Positions 16,377-33,967 of a stretch of 64,000 nt of DNA are shown one piece after another (within the stretch, counting starts at the first letter, position 1; each line of letters opens with the position of its first letter). Both the position numbers and the translations under genes were made by a program. The stretch spans positions 1,798,001 through 1,862,000 of the forward strand of contig NZ_LR215979.1 in NCBI RefSeq assembly GCF_900683735.1, given 5' to 3'. The DNA comes from Fusobacterium ulcerans ATCC 49185. GTDB lineage: Bacteria > Fusobacteriota > Fusobacteriia > Fusobacteriales > Fusobacteriaceae. The notes beneath the pieces are model-generated. The model worked only from the letters and a program-made list of their open reading frames with translations. It searched no databases and had not been told where the DNA came from.

Positions 16377-18002
16377 ATGTTTTACATTGATGGTATATCA
16401 TTGAATAAAATAAAAGATGAACTGAGAGAAAATCTTTCAGGAAAAAAAATAAACAAGATAACAAAAAATACAGAAGTTTCTTTATCTATCTATTTTGGAA
16501 AAACTGAACTTGTATTTTCTTGTAACCCTTCTTTTCCTATCTGCTATATTGCAGATTCTAAAGAAAGCATCTTGGAAAACACCACTGGTCTTGCTGCAAA
16601 CATGAGAAAACATCTGCTCAATGCTATGCTAACTGATGTTCAGCAATTAGGATTTGATAGAATATTATGTTTTAAGTTTGCCAAAATAAATGAACTTGGT
16701 GAAATAAAAAATTACTCTATATATTTTGAAATAATGGGAAAATATTCAAACTTTATTTTTACAGATGAAGAAGATAAAATAATTGATTTACTTAAACGAT
16801 TTTCTCTGGAAGAAAACCGTTTAAGGGCTCTTTTTCCTGGGTTAAAATATGAACAGCCTGTTATTGAAGAAAAAATCTCTCCTTTAAATATTACAGAAGA
16901 AGAATTTAATAAATTTAAAAATGAAAATTCTCTTTTAAAGAATATAGAAGGATTGGGAAAATTAACTGTTCAAAATATAACTGATTTTAATAGTTTTACT
17001 CATCTGTTGAATACTCCATCTCAGCCAAAAATTTTCTTGAACAAAGGAAGAATAGTTCTTGGAAGTGTCCTTAATATTGTTCCTAAAGGAAAAGAATATG
17101 ATGAGGTAGTTTCTTTTGACAGTTTTAGAGAAGTTATAAATTTCTATATAAGTTCAGAAAATCTATCCAGTAGTTTTGATACATTAAAAACTCAGCTTCT
17201 TGATAATATAAATAAAAGAATAAAAAAAAATATGAGAATACTTTCTCTTCTAGAGGAAGAAGTAATAGAGAAACAGGATTTTATAAAATATAAGGAACAA
17301 GGAGATATTCTTGCTGCATCTATTTATTCTCTTAAAAGAGGAATGAGTTCTCTTGAAACTTATGATTTTTATAATAATAGAGAAATATCTATTTCTCTTG
17401 ATCCACAGATAACTCCGCAAGAAAATCTGGAAAAACTTTATAAGAAATATAACAAATTAAAAAGAGGTATGGAAGCTAATAAAAGAAGGTTTCTGGAAAT
17501 AAATGAAGATTTGGATTATTTAAATAGTATCAAACTTTTTATAGATAATAGTCCTAGTACAGATAATCTAAAGCTTATACAAGAAGAGCTCATATCTCAG
17601 GGGTACATAAAAGTACAGCAGAAAAAGGGAAATAGGAAAAAACAAGTAAAGGAAATTGGATATGGAGTGCTCGAATTTAAAAACTTCAAGATACTTTATG
17701 GAAGAAACAACATTGAAAATGATAACTTAACTTTTAAAATTGCTTCTAAAGAAGATATATGGCTGCATTCTAAAAATATTCCAGGTTCTCATGTAATTAT
17801 AAAAGCAAATGAAATCACAGAAGAAATACTTTTAAAGGGTGCCGAAGTAGCAGCATATTTTTCTAAAAGTTCTGCTGGAGATAAAATCAGTGTAGATTAT
17901 ACTAAGAAAAGATATATAAACAAGCCTAAAGGCAGTAAACCTGGGTTTGTCACTTATGAGAATGAAAAAAATATTCTCATTGAAAAACCAAATAAATTAT
18001 AA
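16377..18002 (+). CDS. rqcH: NFACT-family ribosome quality control protein RqcH
   Basis: This 541-residue protein has the NFACT-N domain (about 1-270, with TGLAANMRKHLLNAML), a long coiled coil (about 275-430) and the NFACT-R domain (IWLHSKNIPGSHVIIKA near 460). RqcH binds stalled 50S-peptidyl-tRNA and adds C-terminal alanine tails as degradation tags. Older annotations call it fibronectin-binding protein (FbpA/PavA). It lies about 20 bases after the MarR gene and ends at a strong terminator, closing the PASTA-rsgA-rpe-marR-rqcH operon. Confidence 0.93.
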   Translation: MFYIDGISLNKIKDELRENLSGKKINKITKNTEVSLSIYFGKTELVFSCNPSFPICYIADSKESILENTTGLAANMRKHLLNAMLTDVQQLGFDRILCFKFAKINELGEIKNYSIYFEIMGKYSNFIFTDEEDKIIDLLKRFSLEENRLRALFPGLKYEQPVIEEKISPLNITEEEFNKFKNENSLLKNIEGLGKLTVQNITDFNSFTHLLNTPSQPKIFLNKGRIVLGSVLNIVPKGKEYDEVVSFDSFREVINFYISSENLSSSFDTLKTQLLDNINKRIKKNMRILSLLEEEVIEKQDFIKYKEQGDILAASIYSLKRGMSSLETYDFYNNREISISLDPQITPQENLEKLYKKYNKLKRGMEANKRRFLEINEDLDYLNSIKLFIDNSPSTDNLKLIQEELISQGYIKVQQKKGNRKKQVKEIGYGVLEFKNFKILYGRNNIENDNLTFKIASKEDIWLHSKNIPGSHVIIKANEITEEILLKGAEVAAYFSKSSAGDKISVDYTKKRYINKPKGSKPGFVTYENEKNILIEKPNKL

Positions 18003-24646: not shown

Positions 24647-26446
24647 ATGATAAAAGGAAATACAGATGGAATCAAGGATTTTATTTTAAATGAATTGGAT
24701 TCTCTTCATGATATAACAGTTGAAAAAAATAAAATAATAGAACCAGAAATGCTTGCTCTTATAGCTTCAGTGAGCAGCAGAATAAACAGAGAAATTAATA
24801 TTGCTATTGACAGAAAAGGAAATGTTACTGAAATATCCATTGGAGATAGCAGCAGCGTACAGCTTCCTTTTTTGAATGTCCAGGAAAAAAGATTGAGTGG
24901 GGTAAGAGTTATTCATACTCATCCTAGTGGAAGTTCTAGTCTTTCTAATATAGATATATCCGCTCTTACAAAATTAAAATTAGACTGTATAGTTGCTATT
25001 GGAATAAATGAAGATTATATAACAGGAATGAGCATTGGATTTTGCAGTATAGATGGCAATGATCTTTCTCATGAAGTTCTAGGACCTCTCTCAGTAGAAG
25101 AAGTTGTAAATTATGATTTTCTTTCTAAAATTGAAGAGATAGAAGGATTTCTTAGAAAGAGAGAAATTAGTGAAAATGATGATGAATATGCGATTCTTGT
25201 AGGTTTAGATGATAATGAAAGTCTTGATGAACTAGCTGAATTAGCCAGAGCATGTAATGTTAAAGTTGTAGCTAAATTTTTCCAGAAAAAAACAAGAATC
25301 GATCCATGCTACTTTATTGGACCAGGAAAAGCACAAGAACTTGCTGTTTTTAAACAATTAAAAAAAGCTAATCTTATCATTTTTGATGAAGAGCTAAGTG
25401 GTATGCAGGTAAGGAATTTAGAAGAACTTACAAGCTGTAAAGTTATTGACAGAACTATTCTTATTCTTGAAATATTTGCTACAAGAGCCAGAACCAGAGA
25501 AGCAAAAATACAGGTAGAACTTGCACAGCTTAAATATAGAAGCAGCAGACTTTTGGGGTTTGGTTCTACAATGTCTAGAACTGGTGGTGGAGTAGGTACT
25601 AAAGGACCTGGAGAAAAGAAACTTGAAATTGATAAAAGAAGAATAAGAGAAACTATATATGATTTAAAACAGGAATTAGAAAAAATAAGAAAAACTAGAG
25701 TAACCCAAAGAGAAAAAAGAGATGAATCTGGTATACCAAAAATCTCTTTAGTTGGGTATACAAATGTTGGAAAATCTACTCTTAGAAATCTCCTTGTAGA
25801 TATGTATGCAGCTGACAATACTTCTAAAAAAGAAGCTGTTTTTGCTGAAAATATGCTTTTTGCTACTTTGGATATTACTACAAGAGCAATAGTTCTTCCT
25901 GATAAAAGAGTAGCTTCTCTTACTGATACAGTTGGATTTGTAAGAAAACTTCCTCATGATCTTGTAGAAGCTTTTAAATCTACTCTTGAAGAAGTAAGTT
26001 TTTCTGACTTAATCATCCATGTTGTAGATGTATCAAGTGAAACTGCTCCAGAACAAATTTTAGCTGTTGAAAAAGTGTTAGGGGAATTAAATGCTTTGGA
26101 AAAACCTTCTTTCCTTGCATTAAATAAATTTGAAATGGCTTCATCAGAACAGATAGCTGCCATAAAAGAAAAATTCAGCAGATATCAAATGATAGAAATT
26201 AGTGCTAAAGAAAATAAAAATATTGATGAATTCTTACAGATGACTGTATCTCTTTTACCACAAACTACTAGAAAATGTACTTACTTAATACCTTACAGTG
26301 ATACTTCTATGGGAGCTTTTCTTCATAGAAATTCTATAATTCAAGAAGAAGAATATGAAGGAGAAGGTGTAAAAATAATTGCCGTAGTCAATGATGAAGT
26401 ATACAACAAATGTAAAAAATTCATGATTGAGGAGAATATATGTTAA
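24647..26446 (+). CDS. hflX: GTPase HflX with N-terminal JAMM/MPN-like domain
   Basis: I start at the ATG at 24647 (CGGAG eight bases upstream), giving 599 residues against about 420 for a minimal HflX. Residues from about 185 on are HflX: ligand domain (YFIGPGKAQEL, IFDEELSGMQVRNLE), glycine-rich GFGSTMSRTGGGVGTKGPGE, G1 GYTNVGKST, G3 DTVGF, G4 LNKFE. HflX splits stalled ribosomes. The first about 180 residues form an extra domain with E49, then H90-T-H92-P, S100 and D103. The spacing H-x-H-P-x6-S-x2-D is exactly the zinc-protease JAMM motif. The gene overlaps the MATE gene by seven bases. Confidence 0.93.
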   Translation: MIKGNTDGIKDFILNELDSLHDITVEKNKIIEPEMLALIASVSSRINREINIAIDRKGNVTEISIGDSSSVQLPFLNVQEKRLSGVRVIHTHPSGSSSLSNIDISALTKLKLDCIVAIGINEDYITGMSIGFCSIDGNDLSHEVLGPLSVEEVVNYDFLSKIEEIEGFLRKREISENDDEYAILVGLDDNESLDELAELARACNVKVVAKFFQKKTRIDPCYFIGPGKAQELAVFKQLKKANLIIFDEELSGMQVRNLEELTSCKVIDRTILILEIFATRARTREAKIQVELAQLKYRSSRLLGFGSTMSRTGGGVGTKGPGEKKLEIDKRRIRETIYDLKQELEKIRKTRVTQREKRDESGIPKISLVGYTNVGKSTLRNLLVDMYAADNTSKKEAVFAENMLFATLDITTRAIVLPDKRVASLTDTVGFVRKLPHDLVEAFKSTLEEVSFSDLIIHVVDVSSETAPEQILAVEKVLGELNALEKPSFLALNKFEMASSEQIAAIKEKFSRYQMIEISAKENKNIDEFLQMTVSLLPQTTRKCTYLIPYSDTSMGAFLHRNSIIQEEEYEGEGVKIIAVVNDEVYNKCKKFMIEENIC

Positions 26447-27795
26447 AAATAATACTGGAAATTTTAAGACTAGCTCTTCCAGCAGTTGGGGAAATGATTC
26501 TTTATATGATGATATGGGTACTTGATACCATAATGGTTGGAAAACATAGTGGACAGCTTGGAGTTTCAGCTGTTGGACTTAGTTCAGAGGTAATGTACAC
26601 ATTTTCAAATATAATTGTGGCTATGGGATTATCAATTTCTATTACTTCAATAATCTCAAGGGCTATTGGTGGAAAAAACTATGAAAAAGCAAGATTGACT
26701 TCTGATATTGCTTTAAGGTTGGGACTCATATTTGCCTTTTTAATGGGTGGAATATTCTTTCTTTTCCCCCAGAAAATCTTAACAATTGTAGGAGCTGAAA
26801 AAGATATTTTATCTCTTGCAACTAAATATATGAGAATATGCTCTATTGCTGTAATGTGCAATATGACAACAAATACATTCAATGGAATATTCAGAGGATG
26901 CAAAAATACTAAAACACCTCTCTATACAGCTATAATAGTAAATATAGTAAATTTATCTCTTGATTATATTCTTATATTTGGTAAATTTGGTGCTCCAGAA
27001 CTAGGAGTCGTAGGAGGAGCTATTGCTACTGTTATTGGAAATGTATGTGGCCTATTATTCACATTGAGCCAATTAAAGAAAATACCATTTAAATTAAGTC
27101 CATTAGCTCCATTTAATAAAGAATATTTTAAAGAACTAGTGAGATTAACAATTCCTTCTTCTCTACAGGAAGGGGCTTTTAGTATAAATAAATTGATAAA
27201 TGTAGCTATTATTATGACTCTTGGGAGCTTATCATTTGCTTCTAATCAGATAGCTATTACAATTGAAAGTATCTCTTTTATGCCTGGCTGGGGATTTGCC
27301 ATAGCATGCACATCTCTTACAGGATATTCTATAGGTCAAAAAGATTATGTCAAGGCTAAAACATATATAAATTATTCTATATACCTCGCTTCTGGTATCA
27401 TGGGATTCTTTTCTATAATATTTCTTATCTTTCCAGAAAAACTCATTTCTCTTTTTATAAAGAGCAGTGAAACTGAAGTTATAGCTCTGGGGACTGTCTG
27501 TCTGATGCTTGCTTCAATTGAACAGATCCCTATAGCCATCTCAATGGTATTAGGGGGAGCTTTGAAAGGTACTGGAGATAGCAAGACTCCATTCAAAATA
27601 GTTTTATTTACAAACTGGGTTAGAAGACTTCCTCTTGTGTATTACTTTATTTATTTAAGAAGAAGTTCTGTCACTTATTTTTGGAAGATAACAGCTCTTC
27701 AATGGATAATAGAGGCTATCATTATTTTCATTGTATATCGTCATAAATGGAAAAAATATTATCAAACAGCAGATTTAAAAGAAAAGATTGCATAA
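26440..27795 (+). CDS. MATE-family multidrug/cation efflux transporter
   Basis: This 451-residue protein has about twelve membrane helices in two MatE halves. The halves start near GEMILYMMIWVLDTIMVG and IPSSLQEGAFSINKLINV, and the protein has a short cytosolic tail rich in Lys. MATE proteins export drugs or metabolites in exchange for Na+ or H+. The start lies inside the end of hflX (ATATGTTAAA, preceded by GAGGAGA), so translation is coupled to hflX. The transcript ends at the hairpin at 27803-27840. Substrate unknown. Confidence 0.92.
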   Translation: MLKIILEILRLALPAVGEMILYMMIWVLDTIMVGKHSGQLGVSAVGLSSEVMYTFSNIIVAMGLSISITSIISRAIGGKNYEKARLTSDIALRLGLIFAFLMGGIFFLFPQKILTIVGAEKDILSLATKYMRICSIAVMCNMTTNTFNGIFRGCKNTKTPLYTAIIVNIVNLSLDYILIFGKFGAPELGVVGGAIATVIGNVCGLLFTLSQLKKIPFKLSPLAPFNKEYFKELVRLTIPSSLQEGAFSINKLINVAIIMTLGSLSFASNQIAITIESISFMPGWGFAIACTSLTGYSIGQKDYVKAKTYINYSIYLASGIMGFFSIIFLIFPEKLISLFIKSSETEVIALGTVCLMLASIEQIPIAISMVLGGALKGTGDSKTPFKIVLFTNWVRRLPLVYYFIYLRRSSVTYFWKITALQWIIEAIIIFIVYRHKWKKYYQTADLKEKIA

Positions 27796-30892: not shown

Positions 30893-33800
30893 TCAATTCC
30901 TATCAATTAAAAAATTTTCAAATATATTGTTTTTGGGCTGAGGTTTTCCAAAATAATATCCTTGTATATAATCTATTTTTAAATTACTTACAAGATCAAA
31001 TTCCTCTTTAGTTTCAATTCCCTCTAGACATACTTTAATATTTACTGCATGACAAATTCTTGTAATAAACTCAATAAAAGTGATATCAAATCTACTTTTT
31101 AGTATATCCTTTACAAAAGCACGATCTATTTTTACTATATTAGCAGGAACCTGTTTTAGTATACCAAGTGAAGAATATCCCGTTCCAAAATCATCCATTG
31201 CTGTTTTTATTCCAATATCTTTCATTTGACTGTACATTTCATGCAATGTTTCAATACTCTTAATTATACAGCTTTCTGTCAATTCCAAAATAATATTTTC
31301 AGGTGGAATCTTTTCTTCTGTAATTATAGTTTTTACATCATTTAAAAAATTTTCATCTAAAAGTTGTATAAAGGAACAATTTACACTCACAGTGATATCT
31401 TTATTATATTTCAACATTTCCTTACAAGCCTTTGCAGCTTCTTTCATTACCCATTTACCAACTGGGATTATTAAGCCGCTTTCTTCTAATATTGGAATAA
31501 ATTCATTAGGAGAAACACTCCCAAACTTTTCACATTTCCATCTTAACAAAGCTTCTACACCTTTTAGTTCTGTAGTTTTAGAAAATACCTGTGGTTGATA
31601 GTATACTTCAAATCCTTCAAATCCATTTTCTATACTTTCTCTGATATGACGAAGTATTTCTAAGAAACGCGATTTATGCTCCAATATCTCATTAGAGAAA
31701 AATACTATTCTATCTTTTCCACTCTTTTTTGCATATTGCAATGAATAGTCTGTATATTTATATAATTCTTGATATTTATTTCCATCTTGTGGATAAAGAG
31801 AACATCCTGCAGAAATGGTTACAAATGTTTTTGATCTTTCAAAAAGCTGCTGACGAGAAAATTTCATTTTTATTTTATCATATATATTCTGCAGTTCATC
31901 TTGATCTGTATTTTCTACTAAAATACCAAATTGATCTCCATCCAATCTATAAGCTAAAGCATTTCTTGGAAGAGATGACTGAATTATCTGAGCTGTCATT
32001 TTTAAAATTCCATCTCCAAATTCTCTATCATACATTTCATTTACCTGTTTGAAATCATCTATTCCTAAAATCATCATTCCAATAGTTTCCACAGCATAAT
32101 TTTTAACTTTTTCTTCAAAAGATTTAGAAAACTCATTTATATTTAATAATCTTGTTACAATATCAATTTTATTTTGTTTTCCCAGTAATGTCATTATCCC
32201 AGCAAAAATACTTGGTTTTCCAACTTCATCACGCATTAAATGCCCTCTGCATTTAAGCCATACATATTCTCCATCTTTATTTTTAGCTCTAAATTCTACA
32301 AGATGATAATCTGTCTGATCTTCTCCTATCTCCATATTAGATTGATAAAATTTTTCCCAATCATCTTCATGAACTATATTTTTCCAGAGATAAATTGGAT
32401 CTTGGACTATTTCAGAAGGAAGATTAAACATTTCTACCATTGCAGGGGTATATTTAAATCTACCTGTTTTCATATTACATATATAAATAAAATCATCTGT
32501 ACTCATTACTAAAGCTTCATATAAAAGGTCCTTATCATATATAAAATCTTTTTCAGTTATGGCAAATTTAGTATTGTTTATTTCACCAGAATCATCTATT
32601 TTATTTTTATGATATTTCAATTTTTGAAAATAAAGTTTTTTGTCAGCTTTTGCTATAACATCATTTTCAAAAATTTCTTCTTCAGGCTTAGTTTCTACAG
32701 TTCCAAAACAGAAAGAAAACTCAAATTCTTTTTTCAGTTCTTTCTTCTTTATTTTTAATTTATCTATACATCCAAACAGCAGTTTTATGACTTCTTTTTC
32801 ACTTCTATCTTCAAAAACAACTATAAAATTATCTCCTTCTAATCTAAATATAAATTCTTTCTTGTTTAGATAGCTTTTTATCATTTTTATAGTTTCTATA
32901 ATTGCTAAATCCCCTTCATTATGACCATATTTTTCATTGATCATTTTCAAGTCATCCATATCTACAGAAGCTACTACTAAACTCTTCTTATTTTTCTTAG
33001 CTTCCTGAATAGATTTAGCCATTTCAACTTTTCCAGCTCTCCAGTTCAAAGCATCATTGCATAAAATATCTTGAATAACATTTTGCTTCAAAGCAATTGT
33101 ATCAGTTATATCAGTAGATTCTTGAAAATGGACGATAGAACCATCTATCCATCTTATTAAACTGTCATAATTTTCATATGTTTTTCCTGTTATAGCTCCA
33201 TTTTCTCTCCATATCATACTTGATTGTTCATCCTTTTTTTCTAGAAGCTTTGGTATAGGACAGAAATCACATCTCTTGCTCATACCTTTCTGGAGAATTT
33301 TCCAACACTTTTCTCCTTCTGGTTCAGCAATATTATAGCTTTCTTTCATCTTTTTATTCATAAATAATATTTTATCATTTTTTATATCTGTTACATAAAG
33401 ATTTGTATTCATGTTATCCAAAATTTCATTGAATATCCAAGATTGTATAAAAAATTTATCATATTTTAATTTACTTGTATAATATATCTCCATAATTAAA
33501 GAAAAGGTTTTTAATAAGGTAGTTTCTTCTTTAGTCCAATTTCCATTTTCTTTTTTTCTTCCAACCAGTATTCCACCAATGCAAAAATCTTCCTGAATAT
33601 TTTTTACAGGAAGAAACATAAAGCTATTTTGTGCTGTATTTTTTATCTTATATATTTTTTCATTACTATCCAAGAAAAGATACTCTTTAGCCTTCATAGA
33701 CTCTTCAAATAACTTAAAAAGATTATTATATAAAAATTTTTTCATTGTAGTATTGTTTATATCACAATCATTCCAAAAAAAATCACTTCTAATCTCTTTT

Positions 33801-33967
33801 CTTTCATTTAATATAATTACATTAAGCAAAGAAATATCGCATTCTTTCTTTAAATCTTCTAACATTTTTAGCTTTTCTGAATATGCATATTCATCTTTTT
33901 TTAACATTTTTCCCAAATTCAAAAAAGCTTTATACACACTTTCTGTTTTTAAGTTTCCCAGATTCAT
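30893..33967 (-). CDS. GAF-PAS-GGDEF-PAS-GGDEF-EAL c-di-GMP signalling protein, probable phosphodiesterase
   Basis: The 1024-residue cytosolic protein has, in order: a GAF-like region (about 30-175), a PAS domain with a CDFCPIP Cys cluster (about 180-295), a GGDEF domain with EGDNF (near 376), a second PAS (about 485-610), a GGDEF domain with DGDQF (near 676) and an EAL domain (about 780-1024). EAL residues look intact: EALLRW, ELTES, DDFGTGYSS, KIDRAFV, EGIET. Both GGDEF sites are altered, so cyclase activity is doubtful and c-di-GMP hydrolysis is the likelier output. No membrane segments. It is a lone gene with GGAGGT before ATG. Confidence 0.9.
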   Translation of the reverse strand: MNLGNLKTESVYKAFLNLGKMLKKDEYAYSEKLKMLEDLKKECDISLLNVIILNERKEIRSDFFWNDCDINNTTMKKFLYNNLFKLFEESMKAKEYLFLDSNEKIYKIKNTAQNSFMFLPVKNIQEDFCIGGILVGRKKENGNWTKEETTLLKTFSLIMEIYYTSKLKYDKFFIQSWIFNEILDNMNTNLYVTDIKNDKILFMNKKMKESYNIAEPEGEKCWKILQKGMSKRCDFCPIPKLLEKKDEQSSMIWRENGAITGKTYENYDSLIRWIDGSIVHFQESTDITDTIALKQNVIQDILCNDALNWRAGKVEMAKSIQEAKKNKKSLVVASVDMDDLKMINEKYGHNEGDLAIIETIKMIKSYLNKKEFIFRLEGDNFIVVFEDRSEKEVIKLLFGCIDKLKIKKKELKKEFEFSFCFGTVETKPEEEIFENDVIAKADKKLYFQKLKYHKNKIDDSGEINNTKFAITEKDFIYDKDLLYEALVMSTDDFIYICNMKTGRFKYTPAMVEMFNLPSEIVQDPIYLWKNIVHEDDWEKFYQSNMEIGEDQTDYHLVEFRAKNKDGEYVWLKCRGHLMRDEVGKPSIFAGIMTLLGKQNKIDIVTRLLNINEFSKSFEEKVKNYAVETIGMMILGIDDFKQVNEMYDREFGDGILKMTAQIIQSSLPRNALAYRLDGDQFGILVENTDQDELQNIYDKIKMKFSRQQLFERSKTFVTISAGCSLYPQDGNKYQELYKYTDYSLQYAKKSGKDRIVFFSNEILEHKSRFLEILRHIRESIENGFEGFEVYYQPQVFSKTTELKGVEALLRWKCEKFGSVSPNEFIPILEESGLIIPVGKWVMKEAAKACKEMLKYNKDITVSVNCSFIQLLDENFLNDVKTIITEEKIPPENIILELTESCIIKSIETLHEMYSQMKDIGIKTAMDDFGTGYSSLGILKQVPANIVKIDRAFVKDILKSRFDITFIEFITRICHAVNIKVCLEGIETKEEFDLVSNLKIDYIQGYYFGKPQPKNNIFENFLIDRN

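Follow-up and report, generated by a model that had tools for sequence, protein, structure and literature searches.

A predicted JAMM/MPN domain at the N-terminus of the HflX GTPase of Fusobacterium ulcerans and its relatives

Introduction

The sole HflX protein of the Fusobacterium ulcerans genome is a long form in which the HflX domains are preceded by an N-terminal domain with a complete JAMM motif and a predicted JAMM/MPN fold. The interpretation that we favor, with a probability of about 60%, is that this protein is an HflX carrying an N-terminal JAMM/MPN+ zinc hydrolase, which would dock a peptidase or isopeptidase on the intersubunit face of the 50S subunit. Ribosome splitting by HflX and the JAMM isopeptidases have each been well studied, but they have apparently not been joined before in the open-licence literature. 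A search of this literature found no paper in which HflX is joined with a JAMM, JAB or MPN domain; by counts, three open-licence papers contain both HflX and JAMM, in passing only. HflX is absent from a 2006 survey of prokaryotic JAB contexts, and a 2025 review mentions, for several Clostridium species, HflX proteins with an extended N-terminus but identifies no domain in them. Both parts are of known kinds, and their fusion is unnamed in Pfam, NCBIfam and the open-licence papers searched. As many anaerobes have the conserved active-site set on their single HflX, ribosome rescue in these organisms may include an overlooked hydrolytic step.

In this study, the N-terminal domain was analyzed by motif comparison, structure prediction, profile searches and a survey of bacterial genomes. 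All coordinates refer to the window, a stretch of 64,000 nucleotides from F. ulcerans ATCC 49185 (contig NZ_LR215979.1, positions 1,798,001 to 1,862,000).

The hflX gene and its domain layout

The hflX gene (24647–26443 on the plus strand, stop codon 26444–26446) encodes a protein of 599 amino acids and starts with an ATG at 24647 that has a GGAG ribosome-binding site closely upstream. The protein matches the NCBIfam model for the GTPase HflX (TIGR03156) with 433 bits against a cut-off of 216.75 (E = 6.5e-130). PF13167, PF16360 and PF01926 are all matched as well, so that the protein has the ND1, helical and GTPase domains by which HflX is recognized. These are located at residues 191–278 for ND1 (PF13167, GTP-bdg_N; 25217–25480, plus strand; E = 4.7e-31), 280–358 for the helical domain (PF16360, GTP-bdg_M; 25484–25720, plus strand; E = 2.7e-29) and 365–494 for the GTPase domain (PF01926; 25739–26128, plus strand), the last of which contains the G1 motif GYTNVGKST. 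The three domains are common to E. coli HflX, Listeria HflXr and mycobacterial HflX, and ribosome splitting by the F. ulcerans protein would be expected from its membership of this family.

In both the Pfam and the NCBIfam matches, homology to HflX starts only at residues 188–191 and is preceded by 187 residues. The JAMM/MPN domain with an N-terminal cap, delimited by the AlphaFold2 model and by structural and profile matches, occupies residues 1–178 (24647–25180, plus strand), with a structural core at approximately residues 27–160; compared with ordinary HflX, about 175 extra N-terminal residues thus form this domain. The extension beyond minimal HflX that had been claimed in an earlier sequence-only reading of the window is therefore real, as ordinary HflX lacks it.

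The JAMM motif

The published JAMM motif is EXnHS/THX7SXXD, and its residues in AfJAMM are E22, H67, H69, S77 and D80 (PMC300881). The HflX extension matches this motif exactly in the form EXnHTHX7SXXD, with Ser (+8) and Asp (+11) following the second His at positions identical to those in AfJAMM. The residues, all on the plus strand, are E49 (24791–24793), H90 (24914–24916) and H92 (24920–24922) within the H90-T91-H92-P93 segment (24914–24925), and S100 (24944–24946) and D103 (24953–24955) within S100-x-x-D103 (24944–24955), with distances of 41 from E49 to H90 and of 13 from H90 to D103. The five residues, P93 and the spacings proved to be exactly those given in the sequence-only reading when the open reading frame was read again. 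The pattern H-x-H-P-x6-S-x2-D occurs once in the 127 open reading frames of at least 80 amino acids in the window, against an expectation of 0.0007, and shuffling the domain 200,000 times produced it five times.

E49 is the predicted general acid-base Glu; it is conserved, aligns with the invariant Glu of RadC and is comparable to E22 of AfJAMM. On the basis of the motif, the model, conservation and an alignment with RadC, H90 and H92 are predicted zinc ligands, S100 is the predicted oxyanion Ser and D103 is the predicted third zinc ligand.

Predicted fold and relationship to JAMM/MPN proteins

An AlphaFold2 model of the N-terminal domain, built with 13 relatives, reached a pLDDT of 83.6 and a pTM of 0.81, and predicts a JAMM/MPN fold. 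E49 opens the strand 49–55, H90 and H92 close the strand 86–92 and D103 lies within the helix 101–109, the start of which is formed by the S100-x-x-D103 segment; the same strand–strand–helix layout is found in AfJAMM. In a VIA-align search with the model the best 50 rows were all JAMM/MPN proteins, led by JAMM1 of P. furiosus (PfJAMM1; Z = 7.3 over 109 residues, 3.2 Å) and including RadC, Caldiarchaeum Rpn11, AMSH and CSN5. A Z value of about 7 is in itself no proof of a fold, and it is the shared motif and the profile matches that carry the argument. The leading Foldseek matches were likewise JAMM/MPN proteins, with weak E values (best 1.4e-3).

A single-sequence search of the PDB with the domain gave nothing useful, and a narrow profile (A2) retrieved only a designed Pizza protein, S19 and HEATR1 from the PDB. 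Since the narrow profile missed the JAMM proteins, a wider one (A4, 28 sequences) was needed, which matched the AMSH-like Sst2 (E = 4e-4) and AMSH-LP (E = 3e-3) among PDB sequences. When this profile was compared with RadC proteins using hhalign (E = 7e-9), the Glu, both His, the Ser and the Asp were all aligned. Prok-JAB was matched by 11 of the 28 family members (best E = 1.6e-4), and in the window protein itself the RadC (E = 0.016) and Prok-JAB (E = 0.039) matches were both below the Pfam cut-offs. No NCBIfam model, and no Pfam model above its cut-off, covers the N-terminal domain.

The HflX-borne domain therefore shares motif spacing, predicted fold and residue placement with the JAMM/MPN+ isopeptidases (AfJAMM, PfJAMM1, AMSH/Sst2, Rpn11 and CSN5); unlike these, it lies below the Pfam cut-offs, is fused to a ribosome factor and has an activity that is a prediction. 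Assignment to RadC (PF04002) was considered, since Glu, HxHP, Ser and Asp align, and was rejected: the domain has HTHP rather than HNHPSG, lacks the RadC N-terminal region, sits before HflX ND1 with a GTPase as its partner and scores 15.6 bits against the PF04002 cut-off of 22.1.

Conservation and decay of the catalytic set

Conservation was assessed in 73 Fusobacteriota and Bacillota representatives of the domain with less than 80% identity. All five catalytic residues are kept in 67 of these, although the search profile includes the motif and degenerate copies (locus L198 is one) are consequently under-counted; the median pairwise identity among the intact representatives is 34%. In the remaining six the histidines are lost, and loss of this kind, as opposed to single stray substitutions, is what would be anticipated for a catalytic site. 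With the five residues intact in 67 of 73, the motif observation can be regarded as settled. Both the JAMM-type fold and the conservation of E49, H90, H92, S100 and D103, on which the sequence-only reading had staked its proposal, have thus held up in the model and in the alignment.

Long HflX proteins in which FTRL or YLTF replaces HTHP occur in Bacillota (L131–L134, L136, L137 and L139; L128–L130, L135, L138 and L198). In Myxococcota, the domains mostly have Gln in place of the Glu, HTHL and a loop that is one residue shorter. The HflX-borne JAMM domains therefore apparently comprise one active group and several pseudoenzyme-like groups, and judging from the sequences the domain of the main group is likely to be an active zinc hydrolase with pseudoenzyme offshoots. 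Any activity borne by the domain would be dispensable, because many HflX proteins lack the domain and it is degenerate in several lineages. Together with the intact forms, the degenerate Myxococcota and Bacillota domains provide a natural comparison of enzyme and pseudoenzyme on one and the same ribosome factor, and point mutants of E49 and H90 make the question of catalysis directly testable. As a separate observation, the domain is present on HflX in nearly all Myxococcota sampled (L081–L104 and L216–L225), mostly in the form with Gln and HTHL, which makes the degenerate JAMM phylum-wide.

Distribution and fusion to HflX

The domain was found in 45 of 98 Fusobacteriota genomes sampled, in 65 of 348 from Bacillota (a domain-scale count) and in 133 of 141 from Myxococcota. 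None of the 200 Pseudomonadota genomes sampled has it, the one match being RadC-like, and no relatives were found in the viral contigs searched. Every copy that could be checked within its contig is fused to HflX. Three copies that seemed to stand alone or to be broken (L080, L088 and L141) were attributable to contig ends or runs of N, and weak matches of profile A1 in frames of about 230–280 amino acids, considered as stand-alone copies, were RadC-like proteins (HNHPSG) at 15 of the 16 loci retrieved.

Among the genomes that have the long HflX with an intact site, none of the 45 from Fusobacteriota has a second HflX, and the same holds for 52 of the 53 from Bacillota, the exception being Clostridium bornimense with three HflX proteins. 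Among the Fusobacteriota without the long form, 18 genomes have a short HflX and no HflX was detected in 35. In a quick tree of the HflX core, long and short forms are interleaved with 11 changes between them; the tree is unrooted, and from it alone gains cannot be distinguished from losses. The Fusobacteriota long forms group with C. bornimense (support 100), and the Myxococcota form one clade (support 99). Some Bacillota long hflX genes stand at the standard locus, beside genes recognized by sequence inspection as MiaA, Hfq, SpoVK-like and YnbB-like, and so share the ordinary miaA-hfq-spoVK-hflX-ynbB type of arrangement. When the neighbors of long hflX were compared, no conserved partner gene was found beyond this ordinary neighborhood.

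Two further HflX variants were observed. In one closed Fusobacterium genome (G027, locus L004), the HflX frame has 536 amino acids and ends early in the C-terminal region, with the JAMM domain intact. Some Bacillota have a second type of HflX fusion, to a C-terminal tRNA-dihydrouridine synthase (PF01207, E of about 1e-97) in a single frame of 740–830 amino acids (L191, 1138–3357, and L192, 862–3351, both on the minus strand).

Proposed mechanism and alternatives

By analogy with AfJAMM and Csn5, H90, H92 and D103 would bind zinc, E49 would activate water as a general base and S100 would stabilize the oxyanion intermediate, so that the domain could hydrolyze a peptide or isopeptide bond. In known HflX structures H69 is displaced by ND1 (PMC12493154), and HflX-GTP of the long form would bind the large subunit in this manner. 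The mycobacterial HflX extension, which is likewise N-terminal and has 39–58 amino acids, reaches uL16, H38 and H69–71, changes splitting and has been proposed to disorder rRNA (PMC12493154); it is short and contains no folded enzyme domain, in contrast to the JAMM domain, but the same side of the 50S subunit is expected for both. From these two precedents, a location near uL16, H38 and H69–71 on the intersubunit face of 50S is expected for the JAMM domain, whose attachment point immediately precedes ND1. A model of full-length HflX (pTM 0.50) does not fix the position of the domain and was left out of this placement. What is cut at this site, during or after splitting, would be a conjugate, a factor bound there or one of the ribosomal proteins; a nascent chain at the exit of the tunnel is the less fitting candidate, because the N-terminal end of HflX would face the intersubunit side. 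A more specific proposal, which is possible but tentative, is that of a GTP-gated, ribosome-docked zinc isopeptidase that strips ribosomal proteins or bound factors on this face of a peptide or a ubiquitin-like conjugate, as an unrecognized proteolytic step of ribosome rescue in Fusobacteriota and Clostridia.

The domain might instead be a non-catalytic module, as the JAMM/MPN domains of Prp8 and eIF3 are, which strengthens 50S binding or assists in displacing rRNA helices and in which any zinc site is only structural. The mycobacterial extension is a precedent for this, and the Myxococcota domains and those of the Bacillota lineages without histidines remain on HflX despite the loss of the site, so that a non-catalytic role is indicated in the degenerate lineages. 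However, in the main group E49 and S100 are as well conserved as the ligands, although a zinc site with a purely structural function could do without them, and we consider such a module rather unlikely. An action on nucleic acid such as 23S rRNA or tRNA, similar to that of RadC, would accord with the place of RadC among the closest sequence relatives and with delivery of the domain by HflX to an RNA surface. The biochemical role of RadC is itself unsettled. The JAMM enzymes that have been biochemically defined and possess such a site act as isopeptidases, and the best PDB profile matches are isopeptidases of the AMSH type; we consider a nucleic-acid substrate improbable.

The sequence-only reading had also connected the domain with RqcH, in which case its substrates in ribosome-associated quality control would be stalled chains or the alanine tails added by RqcH. 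The rqcH (NFACT) gene does lie in the window (16377–18002), 6.6 kb from hflX with genes of both strands between them, and HflX yields free 50S subunits, a possible RqcH substrate. However, RqcH is present in 96 of 98 Fusobacteriota genomes, irrespective of the type or absence of HflX, and in 106 of 141 Myxococcota genomes, in which the JAMM site is degenerate. The distance between rqcH and hflX is about 7 kb in close relatives but about 92 kb in one genome (G016) and 200 kb in another (G009). The presence of RqcH therefore does not track that of JAMM-HflX in the Fusobacteriota and Myxococcota genomes, and the linkage of the two genes is not conserved. Furthermore, the HflX N-terminus would point toward the intersubunit side, away from the tunnel exit (cf. 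PMC12493154). The JAMM interpretation thus stands with regard to the complete motif, predicted fold, conservation and fusion to HflX, and its link to RqcH and alanine tailing, which we now regard as highly improbable, is dropped.

Neighboring genes

A gene for a MATE-family transporter (26440–27795, plus strand) starts inside the end of hflX with a seven-base overlap, which suggests translational coupling, and the same pair of genes is found again in several Fusobacteriaceae genomes (L002, L003, L010, L031 and L142). Farther downstream, a protein of 1024 amino acids encoded on the minus strand (30893–33967) reads, by inspection only, like a GGDEF/PAS/GGDEF/EAL cyclic-di-GMP protein.
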